Positions 3,470-31,373 of a DNA stretch of 32,985 bases are shown here, in pieces. The stretch comes from Clostridia bacterium (GTDB taxonomy: Bacteria > Bacillota > Clostridia > Christensenellales > CAG-138), in NCBI GenBank assembly GCA_017440405.1, contig JAFSHG010000001.1, forward strand, positions 1 through 32,985, given 5' to 3'. The position numbers and the translations under genes are program-made. The notes below the pieces were generated by a model that was given only the letters and a program-made list of their open reading frames with translations, did not search any database and was not told the origin of the DNA. The stretch's first letter is position 1. Every line of letters begins with the position of its first letter.

Positions 3470-5266
3470 TTGAGTAAAAAAAATAAAAAAAGCGGCATCC
3501 GTCACCTTATACCGTGCATTAAGGGGTACTGGCTGCCCACTGTACTGACACCCGTGTTGATTGTGTTCGAGGTCATGTTGGAGGTATTCATACCCATGCT
3601 CATGGCTGCCATTGTGGACGGCGGATTGAACCGAAAATCCGACTTCGTGCTGAAAGAATTTTTCAGTCCCGAACTCATAGCAGACCAAAATCTCTTCATA
3701 TTGACTTTGGGCGGTCTCATGGTGCTTTCTGCACTTTTATCACTCACATTCGGCATGATAGCCGCTCGCACCGCTGCCGTTGCAAGCCTTGGATTTGCAA
3801 AGAATTTGCGCAGGTCGGTTTTCAATAAAGTGCAGAGCTTTTCTTTTGCAAACACGGACAGATTTTCCACGCCTTCGCTCATTATGCGTGCTACAACCGA
3901 TGTCAACAACATCCAAAACATATTCCAGCAGGTAATACGTGGTTTGGTACGCTCACCCATTATGATGGTGATGGCGGCTGTAATGGCGTTCCGTGTGGAC
4001 CCTGAATTGCCCACCATTTTCGTTTTTGCAATTCCCGTACTCGCATTAACACTCATTGTACTCATGAAATGGGGCTATCCGAGATTTTCTCAGATGCTTA
4101 AAAGCTATGATAAGATGAACTCCGATGTGCAGGAGAATTTGATTTCTTCACGAGTGGTAAAAGCATATGTACGTGGCGATTATGAACAACAGAAGTTTGA
4201 AGAGAGCAATGCAAAGCTCCGCAAGAACATGGTACGTGCAAACAAACTCTTTGCATACTCAAACCCCATACAGATGTTTGTGATGTGGGGTTGTGCCCTT
4301 ACACTTTACTTTTTGGGCGGAAATAAAGTCATGGCAGGTCATTTGGGCACGGGCGAACTCACAAGCCTTATCTCATACAACACTCAGATTATAAGCTCAC
4401 TTGCCATGGTGACTTTCATGGTAATGGGTCTTTCCATGACACGAGTATCACTTTCACGTGTGAATGAAGTTTTGGACGAAGTTACCGACATCACGGATAC
4501 GGGCGACCCGGAACTTCATGTGGGAAGCGGAAAGGTGGAATTCCGAAATGTTAATTTCAGCTATTCCAAAAATCCCGATAACCTCACTTTGCACAATATA
4601 AATCTTTCCATAGAGTCCGGCGAAACCGTAGGTATAGTAGGCGGTACGGGCGAAGGTAAATCCACACTTGTGCAGCTCATACCGAGGTTCTATGATGCAC
4701 TTACAGGTACGGTGTTGATTGACAGCAGGGATATAAAAGAATACTCTCTCTTTGAACTTCGTGAGAGTATATCCATGGTTTTGCAGAAAAACATGCTGTT
4801 TTCGGGCAGCATAAAAGAAAACTTGCTCTGGGGCAATGCAAACGCCACGGACGATGAAATCATGACTGCTGCAAAACATGCTCAGGCACACGACTTCATA
4901 ATGAGCTTCCCCGACGGATATGACACACAATTAGGTCAGGGCGGTGTGAATGTGTCGGGCGGTCAGAAACAGCGACTTTGCATCGCTCGTGCGCTCTTGA
5001 AAAAGCCGAAAATACTCATTTTGGACGACTCCACAAGCGCAGTGGATACGGCAACCGATGAACGCATAAGAACTGCTTTGCGCACTGAGCTTTCACATAT
5101 CACAAAGATAATAATAGCTCAGCGCATTGCCTCTGTAATTGAAGCAGATAAGATTGTGGTAATGGATAAGGGCACTATAACCGATGTGGGTACACATGAC
5201 GAACTCATGGTGCGCAGCAGCATATACCGTGAGATATATGAATCGCAGATGGAGGAGGGAAAGTAA
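3470..5266 (+). CDS. Heterodimeric ABC exporter, subunit with degenerate ATP site
   Basis: This is a fused membrane/ATPase half-transporter of 598 residues: six transmembrane segments in the N-terminal ~320 residues, then an ABC domain. Walker A is GGTGEGKST near residue 390 and the signature is VSGGQKQR near 494. The Walker B is followed by Asp instead of the catalytic Glu (LDDSTSAVD), and the switch His is Gln (IIAQRIAS). These changes are those seen in the degenerate half of heterodimeric multidrug exporters such as TM287/288, BmrC/D or LmrC/D. The start is TTG, chosen because AAGGAGGG lies 9 bases upstream and no ATG fits. The stop codon directly abuts the partner gene. It probably exports lipophilic compounds or peptides; the substrate is unknown. 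Confidence 0.93.
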   Translation: MSKKNKKSGIRHLIPCIKGYWLPTVLTPVLIVFEVMLEVFIPMLMAAIVDGGLNRKSDFVLKEFFSPELIADQNLFILTLGGLMVLSALLSLTFGMIAARTAAVASLGFAKNLRRSVFNKVQSFSFANTDRFSTPSLIMRATTDVNNIQNIFQQVIRGLVRSPIMMVMAAVMAFRVDPELPTIFVFAIPVLALTLIVLMKWGYPRFSQMLKSYDKMNSDVQENLISSRVVKAYVRGDYEQQKFEESNAKLRKNMVRANKLFAYSNPIQMFVMWGCALTLYFLGGNKVMAGHLGTGELTSLISYNTQIISSLAMVTFMVMGLSMTRVSLSRVNEVLDEVTDITDTGDPELHVGSGKVEFRNVNFSYSKNPDNLTLHNINLSIESGETVGIVGGTGEGKSTLVQLIPRFYDALTGTVLIDSRDIKEYSLFELRESISMVLQKNMLFSGSIKENLLWGNANATDDEIMTAAKHAQAHDFIMSFPDGYDTQLGQGGVNVSGGQKQRLCIARALLKKPKILILDDSTSAVDTATDERIRTALRTELSHITKIIIAQRIASVIEADKIVVMDKGTITDVGTHDELMVRSSIYREIYESQMEEGK

Positions 5267-7186
5267 ATGGCACGAGTTACGGATACCATTGGGTCAAAGC
5301 TGACAAAAAGACGTGCGGATAATCCACTCCGTACATTCAAGCGATTATTTTCCTATTACGGCAAAGGTAATTGCAAGGTTTATTTTGTGTTTGCGGTCAT
5401 AGCCACTGTACTCTATGACATCGCCACCATAGGTGCGTCATTCATGATGCGACCGCTTGTGGACGTCTTGGAAAAGACGATGACTTACCAGAGTGCAGAC
5501 CCCGCACTTGCAGCAGCTTCGGCAAAGTATTTTGCGCTTTTAATCGGCATGGCGTGTCTGTATGTTACCGCCATGATAACGAACTATGCGCTGAATAGAC
5601 TCATGCTTGAATGCAGCGCAAGGGTCATGTATGCACTGAGAAAGGACATGTTTGCACACATGCAGGAATTGCCCATTTCATACTTTGACGGTCATACGCA
5701 CGGCGAACTCATGAGCTATTTCACAAACGATATTGACGCCGTGCGAGAGATGCTCCATCACAGTATCACGCAGATTATAATATCCGTGATTTCACTCGTG
5801 GGCATCGTGTCCATGATGCTTGTGCTTTCCATAAGACTGTGCGTTATAATGTTGGTCATGGGTATATGCATATTCCTCATCGTAAAGAAAATCAGCACTT
5901 TGAGCGGCAAAAACTTTAAGCGTCAACAACAAGTGGCAGCACAGGTAAACGGCTACATTGAAGAGATGATGGAAGGTCAGAAGGTGGTAAAAGCCTTTAA
6001 CCATGAAGATGTGGTCATGAAAGATTTTTCCGTTATGAACGAACAGTTTTGCGAGGTGGGAACACGTGCGCACACATATGCAAACGTAGTAGGTCCCATC
6101 ATGAATAACCTGTCGCACATATTCTATGCCATAACCACCACCGTGGGCGCAATGCTATTTACAGGCGGTGCAACGGCAAAGACGGGTATTCTGGTCACTT
6201 TCCTGCAATACATACGCCAGTTTGCGGACAGACTTTCGCAGATTTCACAGCAGTTTAACTTCATACTTCTTGCACTTGCAGGTGCAGAGCGCATATTTGA
6301 GCTTTTGGATGTACCCGTGGAGAACGATGACGGACAAATAACGCTCGTGAATGTGAAAGAGGACGAACAGGGCAATCTTACCGAATGTGATGAAAAGACA
6401 TGTAAGTGGGCTTGGAAACGAGTGACGGACAATGGCACAGAGTACATACGTGTACAAGGTAATGTAGTATTTTCCGATGTGGATTTCAGCTATGACGGTA
6501 AAAAACAGGTACTGCACAATGTTTCACTGTATGCAAAACCGGGTCAGAAGATTGCTTTTGTGGGGTCAACAGGTGCGGGAAAAACCACCATTACAAACCT
6601 CATAAACAGATTCTACGACATATCAAGCGGCATCGTCACATATGACGGTATAAACATAAAGGACATTAAAAAAGCCGACCTGAGACGTTCGCTTGCAATG
6701 GTTTTGCAAGACACACACCTTTTCACCGCTACCGTTATGGAAAACATAAGGTACGGCAAATTGGACGCCACCGACGAGGAGTGTATACAAGCGGCAAAGA
6801 TTGCAAACGCACACTACTTCATCTCACACTTGCCCGACGGTTATAACACTATGCTTGTATCAGACGGTGCAAACCTCTCGCAAGGTCAGCGTCAGCTCAT
6901 TGCAATAGCAAGGGCGGCAGTGGCAGACCCGCCTGTACTGATATTGGACGAGGCGACCAGCTCCATTGACACCCGAACGGAAAAGCTCATAGAAAAAGGT
7001 ATGGACTCACTCATGGAAGGCAGAACGGTGTTTGTAATCGCACACAGACTTTCCACCGTCCGAAATTCAGACGCCATAATGGTGCTTGAAAACGGCGAAA
7101 TTATAGAGCGTGGCAACCATGACGACCTCTTGAAATTGGGCGGCAAATACTATCAACTCTATACGGGAATGTTTGAGCTGTCATGA
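5267..7186 (+). CDS. Heterodimeric ABC exporter, subunit with canonical Walker B and switch histidine
   Basis: This 639-residue half-transporter has six transmembrane segments and a C-terminal ABC domain with an intact Walker A (GSTGAGKTT near residue 430), Walker B with catalytic Glu (LDEATSSID) and switch His (VIAHRLST). Its signature is altered to LSQGQRQ. In the heterodimer this signature faces the degenerate Walker site of the upstream subunit, so one ATP site should be non-hydrolysing and one active. An insertion of about 40 residues rich in charged residues and containing a Cys and several Trp/Lys lies between the membrane and ATPase parts (about residues 350-395); homodimeric MsbA-type exporters lack it. 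The ATG begins directly after the upstream TAA, with GGAGGGAAAG as ribosome-binding site. Confidence 0.94.
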   Translation: MARVTDTIGSKLTKRRADNPLRTFKRLFSYYGKGNCKVYFVFAVIATVLYDIATIGASFMMRPLVDVLEKTMTYQSADPALAAASAKYFALLIGMACLYVTAMITNYALNRLMLECSARVMYALRKDMFAHMQELPISYFDGHTHGELMSYFTNDIDAVREMLHHSITQIIISVISLVGIVSMMLVLSIRLCVIMLVMGICIFLIVKKISTLSGKNFKRQQQVAAQVNGYIEEMMEGQKVVKAFNHEDVVMKDFSVMNEQFCEVGTRAHTYANVVGPIMNNLSHIFYAITTTVGAMLFTGGATAKTGILVTFLQYIRQFADRLSQISQQFNFILLALAGAERIFELLDVPVENDDGQITLVNVKEDEQGNLTECDEKTCKWAWKRVTDNGTEYIRVQGNVVFSDVDFSYDGKKQVLHNVSLYAKPGQKIAFVGSTGAGKTTITNLINRFYDISSGIVTYDGINIKDIKKADLRRSLAMVLQDTHLFTATVMENIRYGKLDATDEECIQAAKIANAHYFISHLPDGYNTMLVSDGANLSQGQRQLIAIARAAVADPPVLILDEATSSIDTRTEKLIEKGMDSLMEGRTVFVIAHRLSTVRNSDAIMVLENGEIIERGNHDDLLKLGGKYYQLYTGMFELS

Positions 7187-7198
7187 TTTTTTGATTCA

Positions 7199-7322
7199 AA
7201 AAAATGCGATTCCGAAGTGATTGTAATCTCAAAAATGCACATGTATTTTTATGCTTTTGCATGGAATACTAATAAAAAAGCACAGACGGAGATAACAATG
7301 AAAAAACCGAATCGCATTTTTT
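7199..7322. repeat. 14-bp inverted repeat enclosing the start of the small membrane-protein gene
   Basis: AAAAAATGCGATTC at 7199-7212 and its exact complement GAATCGCATTTTTT at 7309-7322 are separated by 96 bases. The loop holds the ribosome-binding site and ATG of the gene at 7298, and the right arm lies in its first codons. Six of the 14 positions are a homopolymer, so part of the match is low complexity. Confidence 0.6.
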
Positions 7323-7531
7323 ATGCAGTAATGAGCGCACTGTTTTACATATGCATTGCAAGAAAAACGCTTGCAGACGGAATACCTGCTGAGGAAGTTT
7401 CACCGCCTGTGAGTGACAGTGTGGGATTCTTTTCCACCGCTGCTGCCGTAAACCTGCTCATGTGGATTATATTTGGACTCGGTGTTGCAGGCATAGTCAC
7501 GGCACTTTGCATAAAAAAGACGGAAAAGTAA
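7298..7531 (+). CDS. Small exported or membrane protein, unknown function
   Basis: I do not recognise this 77-residue protein. It has a short basic N-terminus (MKKPNR), a hydrophobic stretch ending near LADG that could be a signal peptide, a short Pro/Ser/acidic external segment, and a second hydrophobic helix at about residues 50-70 followed by a basic tail (CIKKTEK). The topology suggests a single-span protein with its C-terminus in the cytoplasm. The ATG is preceded by CGGAGATAAC; the frame is open further upstream to 7217, but those codons lack a ribosome-binding site and read as non-coding. A weak promoter (TTGTAA at 7221, TATTTT at 7244, 17-base gap) may serve it. A clear terminator follows at 7554. 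Confidence 0.6.
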   Translation: MKKPNRIFYAVMSALFYICIARKTLADGIPAEEVSPPVSDSVGFFSTAAAVNLLMWIIFGLGVAGIVTALCIKKTEK

Positions 7532-7553
7532 AACGGTTTGATGAAAAAACTCG

Positions 7554-7585
7554 GCAGCGACATTTATTTTGTCGCTGCTTTATAT
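7554..7585 (+). terminator. Rho-independent terminator before dnaX
   Basis: A 9-bp perfect stem (GCAGCGACA / TGTCGCTGC) with a 7-base loop is followed by TTTATATT. It lies 23 bases after the small membrane-protein gene and just ahead of the dnaX promoter. Confidence 0.85.
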
Positions 7586-7597
7586 TAACAATCCCGC

Positions 7598-7626
7598 TTG
7601 TAACGGGTACAAAAACATGTTATAAT
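7598..7626 (+). promoter_or_regulatory. Sigma-A-type promoter of dnaX
   Basis: TTGTAA (7598-7603) and a perfect TATAAT (7621-7626) are spaced by 17 bases, directly behind a terminator and 24 bases before the dnaX ATG. The leader is therefore very short and dnaX has its own transcription start. Confidence 0.85.
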
Positions 7627-7650
7627 GGAAGCCCAAGAGCGGAGGTTATC

Positions 7651-9192
7651 ATGTCATATCAAGCATTGTACAGAAAATACAGACCAAATACCTTTCAAGG
7701 GGTGGTAGGTCAAAAGCATATAACCGATATTTTAAAAAATCAGGTTCTTACGGGTCATACCACACATGCCTATTTATTCTCGGGAACTCGTGGCACAGGT
7801 AAGACCAGCACGGCGAAAATACTCGCCCGTGCCGTAAATTGTCTTTCGCCCGTCGACGGCGAACCGTGCAATAAGTGCGCCGCATGTACCATTCCACCCG
7901 AGGCAAACGTGGATGTGATAGAACTGGACGCTGCTTCAAATAACGGCGTGGACGATATGCGCTCACTCATAGAAAAGGCGGTTTTTGCCCCCGTGAACAC
8001 CGCTAAAAAAGTGTACATCATAGACGAGGCGCACATGTTGTCATCGGCTGCTTTTAATGCACTTTTAAAAACGCTCGAAGAGCCGCCGTCGCATGTTATC
8101 TTCATACTTGCTACCACAGAACCGCACAAGATTCTTCCCACCATAACCTCACGTTGTCAACGCTTTGATTTCAGGCGTTTACGCTTCTCGGACATAAAAG
8201 AATACCTGAAAAAAGTCATCGAACAAACGGGTTCTTCCATAGATGATGAAGGTCTATCCGTAATAGCAAAAAAGGCAAACGGCGGTATGCGTGACGCACT
8301 TTCTTTAGCTGACCAGTGCATATCCTATTGCGGCAATCAGGTGACGGCAAAAGATGTGTATCACATACTCGGAACTGCCGATTTTGACGCCATATATGAC
8401 CTTGCTCAGTTGCTCATTGATTCGGACGCAAAGGGCGCACTTACGCTTCTGGATGAGATTTCAACGGGGCGTGACATGAATACTCTCATTCAAGATTTGG
8501 CATCGCACATGCGTTCACTTCTCATGGTAAAACTCTGCGGCACAGGCTGCGGAGAGATTTTGGACAGCACCGATGAGGATATAGCTCGTCTGTCCGTACA
8601 GGCACAAAATGCGAGCGAAAACAGGCTTATGCGTGCTATCGACATACTCACCCGTACCCACGGCGATATGAAGTTTTATCCTCAACACAATATTTTAACA
8701 GAATCTGCGCTGATTAAGATTTGTAGACCCGAGTTTGAGACTGACATGAGTGCAGCACTTGACCGCATTGATGTGTTGGAGCAAAAAGTAAAAGACGGCA
8801 TAAAGGTGCAAGTGCAACAGACTGCTGTCCCGACTCCCGTAAAACAGTTGCCGCCCAAAAAGAAAAAACGTGTGGTTTCCGAGGACGCCATGACCGTGTT
8901 CAAAGAGATTGCAGACGCTATGGCTCAAATGATAGAAGACGATTGCGGCTTTCTCAAATGCTCTTTTTCAACCGCTGTTTTCGCTGAAATAGTAGGTGGC
9001 GAGTTCAGGCTTCATTTCCCCACAAAAACGCATTGCAATACCGTTACTCAAAGCAGGGAACAGATAGATGCCATACTGGAAGAATTAGGCTATGACTTGC
9101 GGCTTGTAACCGTGGCGGACGAGCCTTGCGATGACACTTCATTGGAAGAAAGTCTGCTTTCACAGTTTCCCGATGTGAAAATTTGCGACTGA
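7651..9192 (+). CDS. dnaX: DNA polymerase III subunit gamma/tau
   Basis: DnaX is the clamp-loader ATPase and organiser of the replisome. The protein has 513 residues and starts MSYQALYRKYRPNTF, the usual family opening. It shows Walker A GTRGTGKTS (Lys51), a four-Cys zinc module (Cys64, 73, 76, 79), Walker B DEAHML (125-130), and sensor 1/SRC motif TSRC (166-169). The collar domain spans roughly residues 220-370 and a lysine-rich linker (PPKKKKR) leads to a tau-like C-terminal region. The start at 7651 is fixed by GCGGAGG seven bases upstream; the same frame runs open to 7462 but crosses the terminator and promoter. The linker codons contain an A-rich tract that might permit slippage. In many Firmicutes an ybaB/recR pair follows dnaX; here an acyl-CoA dehydrogenase operon does. 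Confidence 0.96.
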   Translation: MSYQALYRKYRPNTFQGVVGQKHITDILKNQVLTGHTTHAYLFSGTRGTGKTSTAKILARAVNCLSPVDGEPCNKCAACTIPPEANVDVIELDAASNNGVDDMRSLIEKAVFAPVNTAKKVYIIDEAHMLSSAAFNALLKTLEEPPSHVIFILATTEPHKILPTITSRCQRFDFRRLRFSDIKEYLKKVIEQTGSSIDDEGLSVIAKKANGGMRDALSLADQCISYCGNQVTAKDVYHILGTADFDAIYDLAQLLIDSDAKGALTLLDEISTGRDMNTLIQDLASHMRSLLMVKLCGTGCGEILDSTDEDIARLSVQAQNASENRLMRAIDILTRTHGDMKFYPQHNILTESALIKICRPEFETDMSAALDRIDVLEQKVKDGIKVQVQQTAVPTPVKQLPPKKKKRVVSEDAMTVFKEIADAMAQMIEDDCGFLKCSFSTAVFAEIVGGEFRLHFPTKTHCNTVTQSREQIDAILEELGYDLRLVTVADEPCDDTSLEESLLSQFPDVKICD

Positions 9193-9225
9193 TTCGCTAT
9201 TTATTGTATATTTTCGGCATTTGGC

Positions 9226-9253
9226 TTGACTTAACAATATAATGTGGTAAAAT
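9226..9253 (+). promoter_or_regulatory. Promoter of the acyl-CoA dehydrogenase-etfBA operon
   Basis: TTGACT (9226-9231) and TAAAAT (9248-9253) are separated by 16 bases, giving a leader of about 80 bases before the ATG. The spacer contains TTAACAA (9231-9237), which equals one half of the redox-repressor Rex operator consensus; the other half is not conserved. Confidence 0.75.
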
Positions 9254-9339
9254 CTATTCAGGCTCATATAAGCGTTGAGTTGTCTTTGTTGCGGTTCTGT
9301 GCTTTTATGAGAAATATTTAGTTTTGAAAGGTAGTTATC

Positions 9340-21852: not shown

Positions 21853-22566
21853 TCACTGCATTTTTAGGTAATCTTCCATGAAGGCGGAAAAATAGCTGTC
21901 ACCTATTTGCAGTTGCTCACCGTTTGAGAGTACAAGCGTGTTTCGCACTATCTTTCGCACATGCCGCACATTTACAAAGGCACTCCGACTGCAACGCACA
22001 AACTGCGGCGGCAATTCATTTGTGAGTACACGCATTGATTTTCTTTGCAGAATCTGTCTTTCACGCATATGAATTTCCGTGTAGTTTTTGGCAGCGGTTA
22101 TGCAGATTACTTCACTGTATCTGAGTACCACTCTCTCACCGAACTTGGTTATAATCTCATGCTGCTGTTCGCATTTTTCGCCGTGCAGAGCAAAGATGTG
22201 TCCCATACACTCATACACCTGTTCCCTCAGGTCGGGTGCTGTCTTTACTATAAAGCGCACAGCATTTACCATGTATCCCTTATACACATATTCCATGAGC
22301 GATGAATAAAAAATCTTGGGCAATTCGGGATACATTTGGCATATAATCTGTGCGGTTTCCAATCCGTCCGTACCCGTCATGGATATATCCAAAAATACGG
22401 CATCGGTACCCAAAAAGGCTTCTTTTTCTTGACTCAACACCGCATCGCCCGACTCGTATTCCGAAACACGCACATCTATGCTCCGTTCATTTGCCCAAGT
22501 CTTTATGAAGTTTGAAAGCAAGTATCTGTCTTTTGCACAGTCATCCACAATCACGATATTCAGCAT
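21853..22566 (-). CDS. LytTR-family response regulator (AgrA/LytR type)
   Basis: The 237-residue protein has an N-terminal receiver domain with the acidic pair Asp8/Asp9, phospho-acceptor Asp60 in FLDISMTGTDG and the conserved Lys in FIVKTA. A C-terminal LytTR DNA-binding domain follows (about 135-237: VVLRYSEVICITAAKNYTEIH, FVRCSRSAFVNVRHVRKI). LytTR regulators bind direct repeats upstream of promoters in peptide-signalling, bacteriocin, competence or virulence systems. Its start overlaps the kinase gene by seven bases, the usual arrangement. Repeats upstream of the kinase promoter are a plausible target for autoregulation. No AgrB/AgrD-like signal genes are in the window. Confidence 0.93.
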   Translation of the reverse strand: MLNIVIVDDCAKDRYLLSNFIKTWANERSIDVRVSEYESGDAVLSQEKEAFLGTDAVFLDISMTGTDGLETAQIICQMYPELPKIFYSSLMEYVYKGYMVNAVRFIVKTAPDLREQVYECMGHIFALHGEKCEQQHEIITKFGERVVLRYSEVICITAAKNYTEIHMRERQILQRKSMRVLTNELPPQFVRCSRSAFVNVRHVRKIVRNTLVLSNGEQLQIGDSYFSAFMEDYLKMQ

Positions 22567-23858
22567 GTTTCTTCCTCCGACAAGGGTAAAAATATGTTGG
22601 CTTCAAATCGGTCAGAGCATGGGTTGAAATGACATGCACCGCCGTATTTGCGAACGAGAAAATTTATCCGTGCCAAGCCTAAGCCGTGTTCCAATGAATC
22701 TTTCTTAGTGGTCAAAAGCCTCTCGTGCAGTTTCTTATAATTCCCATCGCTTGAATTTTCCACATATATGCGCAACATATCGTTTTCAGGTGTTACAGAT
22801 AAACGTATGTACGCTTTATCAGTTATTTTTTTGCTTGCTTCCAGTGCGTTGTCCAGCAGATTGCCGAGTATGGAGCAAAATTCCGTAACCGGCATGGGAA
22901 GACGCTCCGGTATAAACAGTTTTGAGGAAAAAGAAATTCCTGCTGTATCCGCACGCATCATGTGTTCGGATATGAGTGCGTCCAGCGAAACATTTCCCGT
23001 ATTTATGCGCATTTGTACCTGTGCAGGTTCGCTCAGGAGCTGCTCCACATACTCGCATATTTCATCCGAGTTTTTGCTCATGCCGAGTATGGTACGCAAA
23101 TGCAGATTAAAATCATGCTTGTTTGTTCTGAGAGCTTGCAGCATGGCACCCATCTGTTCGTAATGTTGCAATTCATCTTCATGTCGCCTTGCAACCATAC
23201 GCTCGTCCACATACTTTTTATTCACCGAGGCAATTTTATACGACAGAAAAAGCGATACCACGGATACAGAAAGCATGGCAAGCGACATGTACAAAAACGG
23301 GGATACGGAATGTAATACATCCGCTTTTGATTGAGCATACGAGAGTATGGCGGTGACGGAGCAAAGGCTGACTTGCATTATACCGAAAGTGGTGTACATG
23401 AGTTTAGGCGTGATAATGAGGTCCTGTGTCCTTATTCCCACCGTTATGAAGAAAAACAGAGTGAGTAAAATTACATATATCCAAACAGTGTAAATCCCCG
23501 ACTCTCCCGTTACGCCATAGCCCGTGATATGTAAAAAGAGCATGGAAAGAGTCCTTGCCGTTACGGAAAAAATGCGTGCACAAAAGCCGAACAGATATCG
23601 CATGTTCACGGAACGGTCAAAGCAAAACATAGCGTACAAAATCTCGGCGGTCATCAAAACCGCAGTAAATATGAACGTACCCGAAAGCGAAAACAGATAA
23701 AACAGAGTGGATAAAAGTGCTATGCACGGCCAACCGAATACGGCATCCTTGCGTCTTTTTACATCATACCCCACACAGAATTTCAGTATCATAAAGAGTA
23801 TAAAGGCTTCATAAAAGCATACGCATATATTCACTAAATCCCAAAGAAAATCCGTCAT
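22560..23858 (-). CDS. Sensor histidine kinase, GHKL type (AgrC-like)
   Basis: The 432-residue kinase has six to seven hydrophobic helices in the first ~210 residues, as in AgrC-type peptide receptors. A short coiled linker follows, then the dimerisation box NKHDFNLHL with probable phospho-acceptor His248. The ATP-binding GHKL domain has an N box (LGNLLDNALEASK) and a G box (EHGLGLARINFLVRKYGG). It is expected to phosphorylate the regulator encoded immediately downstream. ATG 23858 is preceded by AGGTGAT. The gene has a long leader of about 200 bases with two nested hairpins. Confidence 0.93.
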   Translation of the reverse strand: MTDFLWDLVNICVCFYEAFILFMILKFCVGYDVKRRKDAVFGWPCIALLSTLFYLFSLSGTFIFTAVLMTAEILYAMFCFDRSVNMRYLFGFCARIFSVTARTLSMLFLHITGYGVTGESGIYTVWIYVILLTLFFFITVGIRTQDLIITPKLMYTTFGIMQVSLCSVTAILSYAQSKADVLHSVSPFLYMSLAMLSVSVVSLFLSYKIASVNKKYVDERMVARRHEDELQHYEQMGAMLQALRTNKHDFNLHLRTILGMSKNSDEICEYVEQLLSEPAQVQMRINTGNVSLDALISEHMMRADTAGISFSSKLFIPERLPMPVTEFCSILGNLLDNALEASKKITDKAYIRLSVTPENDMLRIYVENSSDGNYKKLHERLLTTKKDSLEHGLGLARINFLVRKYGGACHFNPCSDRFEANIFLPLSEEETC

Positions 23859-23886
23859 ACATCACCTGTTACATGTCTTTTTATGC

Positions 23887-23994
23887 GACGGTCTGCAACT
23901 TGCGTTCAAGTATTTTTTATCAAAACCCGAGTGCCAAATAGGTCTTGCAATGCAAAATATGCTGCTTGTCCGCAAGCTGAACCTTCAGACCGTC
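23887..23994. ncRNA. Structured leader element with nested inverted repeats
   Basis: GACGGTCTG (23887-23895) is the exact complement of CAGACCGTC (23986-23994), and inside it CTTGCG (23899-23904) complements CGCAAG (23971-23976). A local GCTTG-TCCG-CAAGC hairpin (23964-23977) would compete with the inner pairing. On the - strand this lies in the transcribed leader of the kinase gene. It could be a regulatory leader RNA, a small RNA or a MITE-like repeat element; I recognise no known family. Confidence 0.45.
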
Positions 23995-24008
23995 AAATGG
24001 AGGATGAG

Positions 24009-24060
24009 ATGAGAAAGCGGAACGTCCTCGTGACTTATTTTGAGGAATTACCGTTCTCAT
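24009..24060. other. Second imperfect hairpin in the kinase leader/promoter region
   Basis: ATGAGAA (24009-24015), CGG (24018-24020) and TCCTC (24025-24029) pair in order with TTCTCAT (24054-24060), CCG (24051-24053) and GAGGA (24042-24046). The three stems stack symmetrically. The predicted transcription start of the kinase promoter (about 24056) falls inside the outer stem, so it may act at the DNA level or belong to the same repeat element as the neighbour hairpin. Confidence 0.4.
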
Positions 24061-24062
24061 AT

Positions 24063-24128
24063 ATTATATTAACACAGTCCATATACAGTAGCAAATCGGT
24101 TCGTCCCTTAAACTCAAGTTTCGTCCCT
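24063..24128 (-). promoter_or_regulatory. Promoter with tandem direct repeats upstream of the histidine kinase
   Basis: On the - strand a perfect TATAAT (24068-24063) has no good -35 (CTACTG, 24091-24086, at 17-base spacing). Directly upstream are two exact copies of AGGGACGAA (24108-24100 and 24128-24120), exactly 20 bases apart. A weak -35 with two helical-turn-spaced repeats is the layout of activator-dependent LytTR promoters, so autoregulation by the encoded regulator is plausible. No binding data are available. Confidence 0.55.
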
Positions 24129-24129
24129 C

Positions 24130-24187
24130 GATTAAAAATATATTATTTTAAGCGGTGGGGCATACATTCAAGTACACGCCCCACCGC
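24130..24187 (-). terminator. Terminator of the GerMN lipoprotein gene
   Basis: A 10-bp perfect stem (GCGGTGGGGC at 24152-24161 and GCCCCACCGC at 24178-24187) with a 16-base loop lies 17 bases after the stop codon. The tail on the - strand is AT-rich (TTAAAATAATATATTTTT) rather than a pure T run. Confidence 0.75.
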
Positions 24188-28756: not shown

Positions 28757-28902
28757 AAAATTCATCTCCTTTTCGTTTAGTTCAATATATGCGTATCTGT
28801 TCATAATAGTACAGGCAAAAGCCAAGTCCGAAAAACTTTTTTCTCTCTGCATTTTTAGTCAAAACCGTATGTACTTTTGGGTAAGACCGTACTTTTTTTG
28901 TG

Positions 28903-28944
28903 TTGACACGAGAGTGGAATTGTTATATCATTATAACAGATTTT
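28903..28944. promoter_or_regulatory. Overlapping divergent promoters with a palindrome
   Basis: On the + strand TTGACA (28903-28908) and TATCAT (28926-28931), 17 bases apart, point at the membrane-protein gene. On the - strand TG-n-TATAAT (28935-28930) points at spoIIIAH. The two -10 boxes overlap, so RNA polymerase could occupy only one at a time. TGTTATA-TCAT-TATAACA (28921-28938) is a perfect inverted repeat across both boxes and may be an operator. Confidence 0.6.
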
Positions 28945-29491: not shown

Positions 29492-31297
29492 ATGGCAGAA
29501 CAGAAAAAAGTATTAAAGCGCAGCGAAGTACCCAAAGAGTACACATGGGCAACGGAGCATTTTTATGCCACGGACGAACTTTGGTATGCAGACTTGGAAG
29601 CACAGCAGTGCTTGGGTGCTGAAATGGAAAGTTTCCGCAACACACTTAATACAAGCGGCAAACGCCTGTATGAGTATTTTGTATTCTGTGATAAACTGAA
29701 TCAGAAGTTTGAGTTCTTGGCAAACTATGCCCTGAGAAAGAGCGATGAGGACACTTCAAACAGCAAGTATCAGGAGATGCGCAGTAAAGTTATGAGCTTT
29801 ATCGTGGATATAGAGAGCAAAGCGGCTTTTGCAACTCCCGAAATTTTGGCTATCGAAGACTCCGTTTTGGAAGGTTTTTACAAGGAATGTCCCGAGCTTA
29901 AATTATACGAGCGTCATCTCACAAAGATACGCCGTCAAAAAGCACATGTGCTTTCCGATGCAGAGGAGAGAATCCTTGCAGCAGCAGGCGAAATTTCAAG
30001 CGCACCGAATCAGATAGGTTCGGTATTCAGAAATGCCGACTTGAAGTTCCCGAATGTTTCAGATTCCGAGGGCAAATCACATCAGCTCACACAGGGTTCT
30101 TTCATACCTCTCATGCAGGGCAATGACAGAGGCTTGCGCAAAAACGCATTTGAAACATTCTACGGTGTTTTTGAAGGTTTCCGCAACACCACGGCAGCAT
30201 TTTTGGACGCTCAGGTACGTCAGCTCATGTTCTATGCCAAGGCACGCAAGTACAACAGCACGCTGGAAGCGTCACTGGACAACACCGAAGTTCCCGTTAC
30301 CGTGTACCATAACCTCATAAAGACGGTAAACGACAACATGAAATACATGCACAAGTATATGAAACTCCGCAAGAAAATCATGGGTGTTGACGAACTTCAC
30401 ATGTACGATATCTATACCAATATGGTAGAGGATGCAGAAAAAGAAATCAGTTTTGAAGAAGCAAAAGCTACATGTTTGGAAGGACTTGCCCCCTTGGGTG
30501 AAAAATATCTGGACATGCTGCGTGAGGGCTTCTCCAATCGTTGGATAGACGTGTATGAAAACGAGGGCAAGCGCGGCGGTGCATATTCATCGGCAGGCGA
30601 TCCCCACCCGTTCGTGCTTTTGAACCACAAGGACACGCTGGACTCCATGTTCACTCTTGCTCATGAGATGGGTCACGCTCTGCATACCTATCATTCTAAC
30701 TTGCATCAGCCCCCTGTATATAAGGAGTATGTGATATTCGTAGCCGAGGTTGCGTCCACATGTAATGAAGTGTTGCTCATGAGACATTTGCTCTCAAAGA
30801 CTCAGGATAAGCAAGGCAGAGCATACCTCATAAATTACTTCTTGGAGCAGTTCCGCACCACGCTTTACCGTCAAACCATGTTTGCCGAGTTTGAGCTTCG
30901 CATGAACGAGATAGCAGAAGCAGGCGGAAGCCTTACTGCCGACACTCTCTGCAATGAGTACTACAAGCTAAACAAGAAATACTATGGCGATGACATGGTG
31001 GTGGATGATTACATCAAGTATGAGTGGGAGCGTATACCGCACTTCTTCTTCAATTACTATGTATTCCAGTATGCTACCGGATTCTCTGCTGCTGTTGCAA
31101 TCGCAAACAGAATACTTTCAGAGGGTCAGCCCGCTGTGGATGATTACTTGAAGTTCTTAAGTTCCGGCTCATCACAAGACCCCATCTCACTCCTCAAAAT
31201 CGCAGGCGTGGATATGACAACCGCAAAACCCGTAGAAGATGCTCTGAAACTCTTTGGTGAACTCATCGACGAAATGGATGAGCTTATGAGCAAATAA
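29492..31297 (+). CDS. pepF: Oligoendopeptidase F (M3B zinc metallopeptidase)
   Basis: PepF degrades oligopeptides of about 7-17 residues in the cytoplasm. The 601-residue protein has the N-terminal helical oligopeptidase domain and the M3 zinc motif HEMGHALH near residue 390, with the downstream Glu-containing helix (VAEVASTCNEVLL) supplying the third ligand. The C-terminal block PHFFFNYYVFQYATGFSAA is also diagnostic. Length matches the family. ATG 29492 has GGAGG at six bases. A strong terminator follows. Confidence 0.96.
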   Translation: MAEQKKVLKRSEVPKEYTWATEHFYATDELWYADLEAQQCLGAEMESFRNTLNTSGKRLYEYFVFCDKLNQKFEFLANYALRKSDEDTSNSKYQEMRSKVMSFIVDIESKAAFATPEILAIEDSVLEGFYKECPELKLYERHLTKIRRQKAHVLSDAEERILAAAGEISSAPNQIGSVFRNADLKFPNVSDSEGKSHQLTQGSFIPLMQGNDRGLRKNAFETFYGVFEGFRNTTAAFLDAQVRQLMFYAKARKYNSTLEASLDNTEVPVTVYHNLIKTVNDNMKYMHKYMKLRKKIMGVDELHMYDIYTNMVEDAEKEISFEEAKATCLEGLAPLGEKYLDMLREGFSNRWIDVYENEGKRGGAYSSAGDPHPFVLLNHKDTLDSMFTLAHEMGHALHTYHSNLHQPPVYKEYVIFVAEVASTCNEVLLMRHLLSKTQDKQGRAYLINYFLEQFRTTLYRQTMFAEFELRMNEIAEAGGSLTADTLCNEYYKLNKKYYGDDMVVDDYIKYEWERIPHFFFNYYVFQYATGFSAAVAIANRILSEGQPAVDDYLKFLSSGSSQDPISLLKIAGVDMTTAKPVEDALKLFGELIDEMDELMSK

Positions 31298-31319
31298 AAC
31301 TCGCATCATTCATAAGATA

Positions 31320-31356
31320 AAGGGAGAAACAAAATCAGTTTCTCCCCTTCTTTTAC
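31320..31356 (+). terminator. Rho-independent terminator of pepF
   Basis: GGGAGAAAC (31322-31330) and GTTTCTCCC (31338-31346) form a 9-bp stem with a 7-base loop, followed by CTTCTTTT. The A/T flanks may also let it stop the convergent gene ending at 31374. Confidence 0.88.
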
Positions 31357-31373
31357 CAATAGCTGCTCCAAAC

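Follow-up and report, generated by a model that had tools for sequence, protein, structure and literature searches.

The region of about 200 nt ahead of a GHKL sensor kinase gene contains two strongly folded hairpin blocks, and we lean towards reading it as the 5' leader of an autoregulated LytTR operon, in which the apex of one hairpin would stem from a dispersed repeat and the folded RNA would have a passive protective effect. The analysis covered a stretch of 32,985 nucleotides (the window), which is one contig of an assembly of 1.55 Mb that is 89.6% complete.

Genes and reading frames around the leader

The genes and the elements between them are as follows.

21853..22566, minus strand: response regulator with a LytTR DNA-binding domain (Pfam LytTR, E 2.2e-16; Response_reg, E 1.2e-10)
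22560..23858, minus strand: GHKL sensor kinase, 432 aa (Pfam HATPase_c_5, E 1.3e-21)
23861..23867, minus strand: ribosome-binding site AGGTGAT, read from the sequence
23887..23994, minus strand: block B, 108 nt, an 18-pair outer stem with a 6-nt bulge
23995..24008, minus strand: linker between the blocks, for which one fold prediction shows pairing to the ribosome-binding site and the start codon
24009..24060, minus strand: block A, a hairpin that is predicted to form the 5' end of the mRNA
24152..24187, minus strand: 10-bp hairpin rich in GC, located after the upstream germination-domain gene and before a LytTR-type box

The response regulator gene begins before the kinase gene has ended. Upstream, an in-frame TGA two codons ahead of the ATG keeps the kinase frame from extending further. 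The first-pass annotation had stated that no gene explains the blocks, and this was borne out, as neither of the two overlapping open reading frames has the codon usage of a gene. A leaderless upstream frame of 46 aa (24060-23920, minus strand) had a codon score of -0.04 compared to a gene-segment mean of 0.23, with no gene segment scoring so low, and a 134-aa frame on the plus strand scored -0.12, on a scale in which the scored genes also set the codon table. Both were rejected as genes. The hairpin at 24152..24187 has fully complementary arms (24152-24161/24178-24187, 100%) around a 16-nt loop and is probably the terminator of the upstream germination-domain gene; the terminator scan allows loops of 3-8 nt only and does not list it. 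An origin of the leader from a plasmid or phage was also rejected, with no match in plasmid and phage searches.

Both blocks fold more strongly than shuffled sequence

Both hairpin blocks were recovered, and on both strands they folded better than dinucleotide-preserving shuffles, which were used for all of the region folds. For the whole region z was -4.2 on the plus strand and -5.0 on the minus strand, and 0 of 200 shuffles equaled it on either strand. Block B gave z -4.6 (plus) and -5.35 (minus) with 0 of 500 shuffles on either strand, and block A gave z -3.4 (plus, 0/500) and -3.3 (minus, 3/500). Block A consists of three stacked stems in its 52 bases with a minus-strand energy of -15.6 kcal/mol. 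Block B is closed by the perfect 9-bp pair GACGGTCTG/CAGACCGTC with 90 nt between its arms. The inner pair that had been described as 6 bp long was present but its length had to be corrected, as CAGCTTGCG/CGCAAGTTG forms 9 pairs including one G-U, giving an outer stem of 18 pairs in total interrupted by the bulge. The small GCTTG-CGGA-CAAGC hairpin was found at 23977-23964 on the minus strand.

The window as a whole was scanned in 756 tiles of 174 nt with 30 shuffles each. The best tile covering the leader on the scan grid had z -4.0, and other tiles reached -5.5 (31321, minus), -4.8 (26449, minus) and -4.6 (27493, plus). The fold of the leader is therefore unusual and not unique, because a few other tiles are equally strongly folded. 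Beside the tile with z -5.5 lies an imperfect 23-nt inverted repeat (31308-31360), which follows the plus-strand gene at 29492-31297 and is probably a terminator.

A LytTR-type box precedes the folded region

AgrA and VirR are examples of LytTR-family regulators from autoregulated operons. Promoters of LytTR operons carry two direct repeats of about 9 bp separated by 11-12 bp, and the operon itself encodes the cognate LytTR regulator. Both traits are present here, the first in a pair of AGGGACGAA repeats and the second in the response regulator gene at 21853-22566. The box and its associated -10 region are located as follows.

24100..24128, minus strand: LytTR-type box of two AGGGACGAA repeats, 20 bp from start to start (9 bp with 11 bp between)
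24063..24071, minus strand: putative -10 region, TGnTAATAT, 28 nt past the box; an alternative perfect TATAAT lies 31 nt past the box

Excerpts of PMC6193735 describe LytTR operons that are autoactivated via 9-bp repeats 11-12 bp apart, the sequence of the repeats being variable and their spacing conserved. The same arrangement was seen when the kinase genes were compared. In all eight full-length kinase genes compared, a 9-nt unit was repeated, with 8 or more positions matching, at a spacing of 20 bp (the kinase of the window) or 21 bp (the other seven, one in the source genome and six from family genomes). Every other spacing between 11 and 44 bp was seen in two of the eight at most. The repeat sequences differ between systems. 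This count used eight of the nine full-length kinase matches from family genomes, two of the eight being in the source genome, and excluded G036a (the second kinase of a tandem pair, directly after G036b and without a box) as well as eight short kinase matches. In G080 the best-scoring 21-bp place listed was 199 nt upstream, and another with 8/9 matches was closer to the start.

When up to 3 mismatches were allowed, the 29-bp box turned up once more in the genome, at G000:C116:5013-5041. The similarity at this second locus (L016, G000:C116:4989-5050) was 81% over 62 bp and included the AT-rich stretch before the box. The box stands upstream of 5155-9308, encoding a 1156-aa ABC permease, plus its ATPase, and these are a probable second target of the same LytTR regulator. 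In a scan of one-per-species genomes the GGGAYGAA-type box was detected in seven stretches from five named assemblies (Ruminococcus, Clostridia and Clostridiales). These loci (L040-L046) have GGGACGAA-type boxes with 20-bp spacing in related Clostridia, and three of the contigs belong to MAG RUG11818. L040 holds more than one box, and some boxes precede frames resembling lipoproteins or response regulators; those of L042 and L043 directly precede frames resembling response regulators, as judged by eye from the translated start.

Promoter position and leader length

A -10-like hexamer was located 28 nt past the box in 7 of 15 boxes, including that of the kinase operon, and at 29 nt in one more, while 7 of the 15 had none at either distance; this comparison left out L040, one of the seven GGGAYGAA-type loci. 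Among 50 distances, 28 nt gave the highest mean -10 match. The predicted promoter of the kinase operon has no good -35, and the generic promoter scan does not list it. We infer an mRNA start at about 24060-24056 on the minus strand, so that the 52-base block A would begin at the 5' end of the message. The exact start is uncertain because the two -10 candidates stand 3 nt apart. The box and the -10-like hexamer, which place the start at the edge of the 52-base block, thus lend indirect support to the earlier suggestion of a leader RNA.

The distance from the end of the box to the start codon was 241 nt for the kinase of the window, 233 nt for G036b and 40-85 nt for the other six (the G101 start codon was set by eye), making this stretch about 155-200 nt longer than in six of the seven related kinase genes. 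We propose that it is longer because it carries the hairpins. Only one of the six leaders of sufficient length for folding was strongly structured, that of the window (z -4.3), and those of C5, G053, G101, G079 and G036b were between -1.5 and +1.1. The leader of G036b is equally long without a strong fold, so that length alone needs no hairpins. The G036b locus (G036:C54:1872-4501) contains two related kinase genes in tandem, and it is the upstream one that has this AT-rich, weakly folded 233-nt leader.

A switch or a small RNA is not supported

One earlier suggestion for these blocks was a regulatory RNA able to switch from one fold to another. Under this explanation the linker CTCATCCTCC would be base-paired to the start codon and ribosome-binding site in one state, and in the other block A would form and free them. 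Folding the leader together with the start of the coding region did give this linker pairing at minimum energy. Block A is its competitor, and the two states lie about 2 kcal/mol apart. Opening of the start site, however, required 3.4 kcal/mol. Of 300 shuffled leaders, which averaged 6.2, 94% required more, and the value for the leader falls inside the range of seven neighbouring genes (2.6-16.4) that were folded with shorter upstream parts. Most shuffled leaders thus make the start site harder to open, and compared to shuffles the leader fold hides it no more than expected by chance. There was also no Rfam match, and no leader homologue for covariation came from a DNA search of 103 family genomes or from a structure-model search, with filters that lose some weak matches, of 396 sampled genomes of the order. 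Together these data make a switch quite unlikely. The modeled folds are instead consistent with strong, self-contained hairpins whose effect may be to hold the leader away from the start site, not to hide that site. The Rfam search gave no match at gathering score anywhere in the window; a weak snoJ33 match (E 4.8) fell at 23734-23778, within the kinase gene.

Another proposal was a small RNA, transcribed from the LytTR promoter and ending near block B, as with VirR of Clostridium perfringens. The LytTR-type box lies directly ahead of the folded region, and regulatory RNAs driven by VirR are described in excerpts of PMC2838878. However, the terminator scan detected no U-run terminator after block B, the sole terminator-like site listed being a weak 5-pair one inside the block, and the ribosome-binding site of the kinase follows 20 nt further on. 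The small RNA proposal was not upheld by this result, and we consider it decidedly improbable.

A dispersed hairpin repeat is present in the genome

A model (R2) was built from five aligned intergenic hairpins (C54, C45, C46, C9 and C14), excluding the apex of block B. In 474,729 bases, a sample biased in part by contigs picked for their matches, R2 retrieved eight copies of a dispersed 44-bp hairpin at E<=0.06, namely the five training copies plus C22, C125 and C2. The consensus runs from a T-run through ATCAAMACCG, a loop of approximately TATGGCAAG and CGGTKTTGAT to an A-run, with longer loops in some copies. The repeat is unlike a terminator because on both strands a T-run comes before the stem and an A-run after it. 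Covariation among the five training copies was modest. In about 327 kb of contigs fetched without a prior match there were three copies at E<=0.06 (C14, C22 and C2), which suggests some fifteen per genome.

Two simpler searches were also made. The pattern ATCAANACC-N(6,15)-GGTNTTG, derived from the window copy, C46 and C45 and so partly from the window copy itself, occurred at six places in the genome, two of them (C19 and C85) inside long open reading frames, and at none in the control. A two-arm matrix gave 347 matches above threshold in the sample, training copies included, compared to 58 in the reversed control. Frames of at least 150 aa make up 83% of the repeat-search sample, and all nine places examined, including the window copy, were outside frames taken for genes by length, without annotation. 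In the genomes of six relatives (275 kb) R2 found nothing below E 1 and one match at E 2.9, and one high match of the two-arm matrix (30.1, L112) was inside open reading frames. Rfam searches of six hairpin-copy loci produced no family for the hairpin; the matches were three tRNAs, a SAM riboswitch elsewhere and two below gathering score. Literature searches for such repeats in Ruminococcaceae or Clostridia gave no relevant paper among the matches listed, which is no proof that the repeat is undescribed.

Some of the copies have features of their own. The copy at C22 abuts the stop codon of the preceding frame. C22 and C2 (G000:C22:3202-3260 and G000:C2:7757-7814; L079 and L062) are long-loop variants with related loop sequences and could represent a second subfamily or else a parent element of greater length. 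A strong copy at G000:C14:1254-1298 (L072) lies about 210 bp upstream of a long open reading frame that reads like rpoB. There is also a possible second copy in the window, which adjoins the start of a 199-aa minus-strand frame and is overlapped by two short frames.

28851..28915, plus strand: possible second, weaker repeat copy (R2 16.6 bits, E 1.1 in 475 kb)

The apex of block B is a probable copy of the repeat

The portion of block B that resembles the repeat is its apex.

23912..23958, minus strand: apex of block B, 47 nt, probable diverged copy of the dispersed intergenic hairpin repeat

From its sequence we consider it fairly probable that the apex belongs to this family. R2 scored it at 18.5 bits, with E 0.37 in the 475-kb sample and E 1.6e-4 when the leader alone was searched, and only 1 of 3734 random windows aligned to the eight copies as well as the apex did. 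Its right arm and loop match the family, and its left arm has a 2-nt insertion and further changes. Like the eight other copies it is intergenic, being overlapped only by the 134-aa plus-strand frame judged to be non-coding. Two matches that score like the apex, L086:8074 and L069:18633, fall inside open reading frames, and the apex was not among the best 40 matches of the rigid arm matrix.

The first-pass annotation had raised the possibility of a non-autonomous repeat element. This did not hold for the blocks as wholes, for which a DNA search of the genome gave no further copies, but it stands in weak form for the 47-nt apex. In its full form the idea would be a mobile element (MITE) of 108 bp with the GACGGTCTG inverted repeats as its ends. 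The terminal inverted repeat is perfect over its 9 bp, and a structure model of block B alone (R1) gave one further full-length match in the genome, weak at E 0.02 (C46:7031-7132), that has the inner hairpin in common. The outer arms of this match are different, however, and DNA searches of the genome (E<=1), 103 family genomes, plasmids and phages recovered neither block B nor its outer arms a second time. Pairing of the flanks was equaled in 0 of 300 single-base shuffles at block B, in 8 of 300 at C2, in 12 of 300 at C54 and in 58 to 279 of 300 at the other six, so that it is not common to the remaining copies. Since flank pairing clearly beats shuffles only at block B, we rejected the view that outer stems characterize the family. 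We regard a whole mobile element as extremely improbable.

A further idea is that a protein or a nuclease binds to the dispersed hairpin, and that the hairpin's copies, including the one in the leader, tie the kinase operon into a genome-wide circuit. If this were true the circuit would act post-transcriptionally or at the DNA level and would be added to the LytTR autoregulation of the kinase operon. We consider it improbable.

Homologues of the leader and the possibility of no function

The leader had no DNA match in 103 family genomes, where the kinases are distant only (identity 25-30%), and neither did the outer arms of block B. Across 396 sampled genomes of the order, the block B structure model at E<=0.01, with filters that lose some weak matches, hit the source genome only, as did a search for the kinase at E<=1e-45. 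A search of genome contigs confirmed no close relative of the kinase.

These results bear on the possibility that the hairpins have no function, the region being intergenic DNA under no constraint where chance palindromes persist beside an old copy of the repeat. Conservation was not found in the genomes searched, strong folds also occur elsewhere in the window, and most kinases of this type have a short leader with none of the five others that were folded showing a strong fold. However, an 18-pair stem that exceeds 500 shuffles and flank pairing that exceeds 300 would be expected to decay without selection. We see a functionless region as rather unlikely, though the strongest competitor to the leader described above.

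Discussion

Our preferred explanation is that the roughly 200-nt region would be the 5' untranslated leader of the mRNA for the kinase and response regulator. The operon's own LytTR regulator would bind the double AGGGACGAA box and activate its own operon, with transcription starting at the first bases of block A. A small dispersed hairpin would have been captured by the leader, or the leader would have developed around it, and the unique outer arms would close this repeat-derived apex into the 18-pair stem. The effect would probably be passive in two ways, the folded 5' end and self-contained stem shielding the message from nucleases and the hairpins keeping the leader off the ribosome-binding site.

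Related arrangements are known from other bacteria. The HdrRM and BrsRM systems of Streptococcus mutans, as described in excerpts of PMC6193735, also have direct repeats of 9 bp immediately ahead of their own promoter, with 11-12 bp between them. Unlike the operon studied here, they encode a membrane inhibitor rather than a kinase and response regulator pair, and here the box is putative and is followed by a long folded leader. The VirSR system of Clostridium perfringens similarly consists of a kinase and a response regulator and has boxes of paired direct repeats ahead of promoters, according to portions of PMC2838878, but its repeats as defined there are 7-8 nt apart and its target genes are different. 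VirSR drives regulatory RNAs, whereas the kinase locus in the window has no sign of a separate regulatory RNA. The Agr system shares a GHKL kinase with this operon, and the AgrC model matched the kinase weakly, at 35.9 bits where the cut-off is 500. In contrast to Agr, AgrB was not found in the source genome at E<=0.01, in an assembly that is 89.6% complete and in a search without a positive control, as 0 of 14 control genomes passed the cut-off. On this basis Agr quorum sensing was rejected.

The dispersed hairpin is comparable to the pneumococcal BOX, RUP and SPRITE elements, which are small, dispersed, intergenic and folded (excerpts of PMC3049150). It differs from them in sequence and size, and at about 44 bp it was found in one genome with fewer copies by estimate. 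The authors of PMC3049150, in the same excerpts, regard such repeats as parasitic and likely to affect genes co-transcribed with them, and report a BOX element within the 5' untranslated region of the pneumococcal trp operon, so that repeats captured in leaders are one known origin of 5' structure.

For this organism the analysis suggests a sensor kinase operon whose self-activation signal would be readable from repeat spacing, and the same regulator gains one probable further target, an ABC transporter. It also suggests that a small hairpin repeat of the source genome can land in an mRNA leader.
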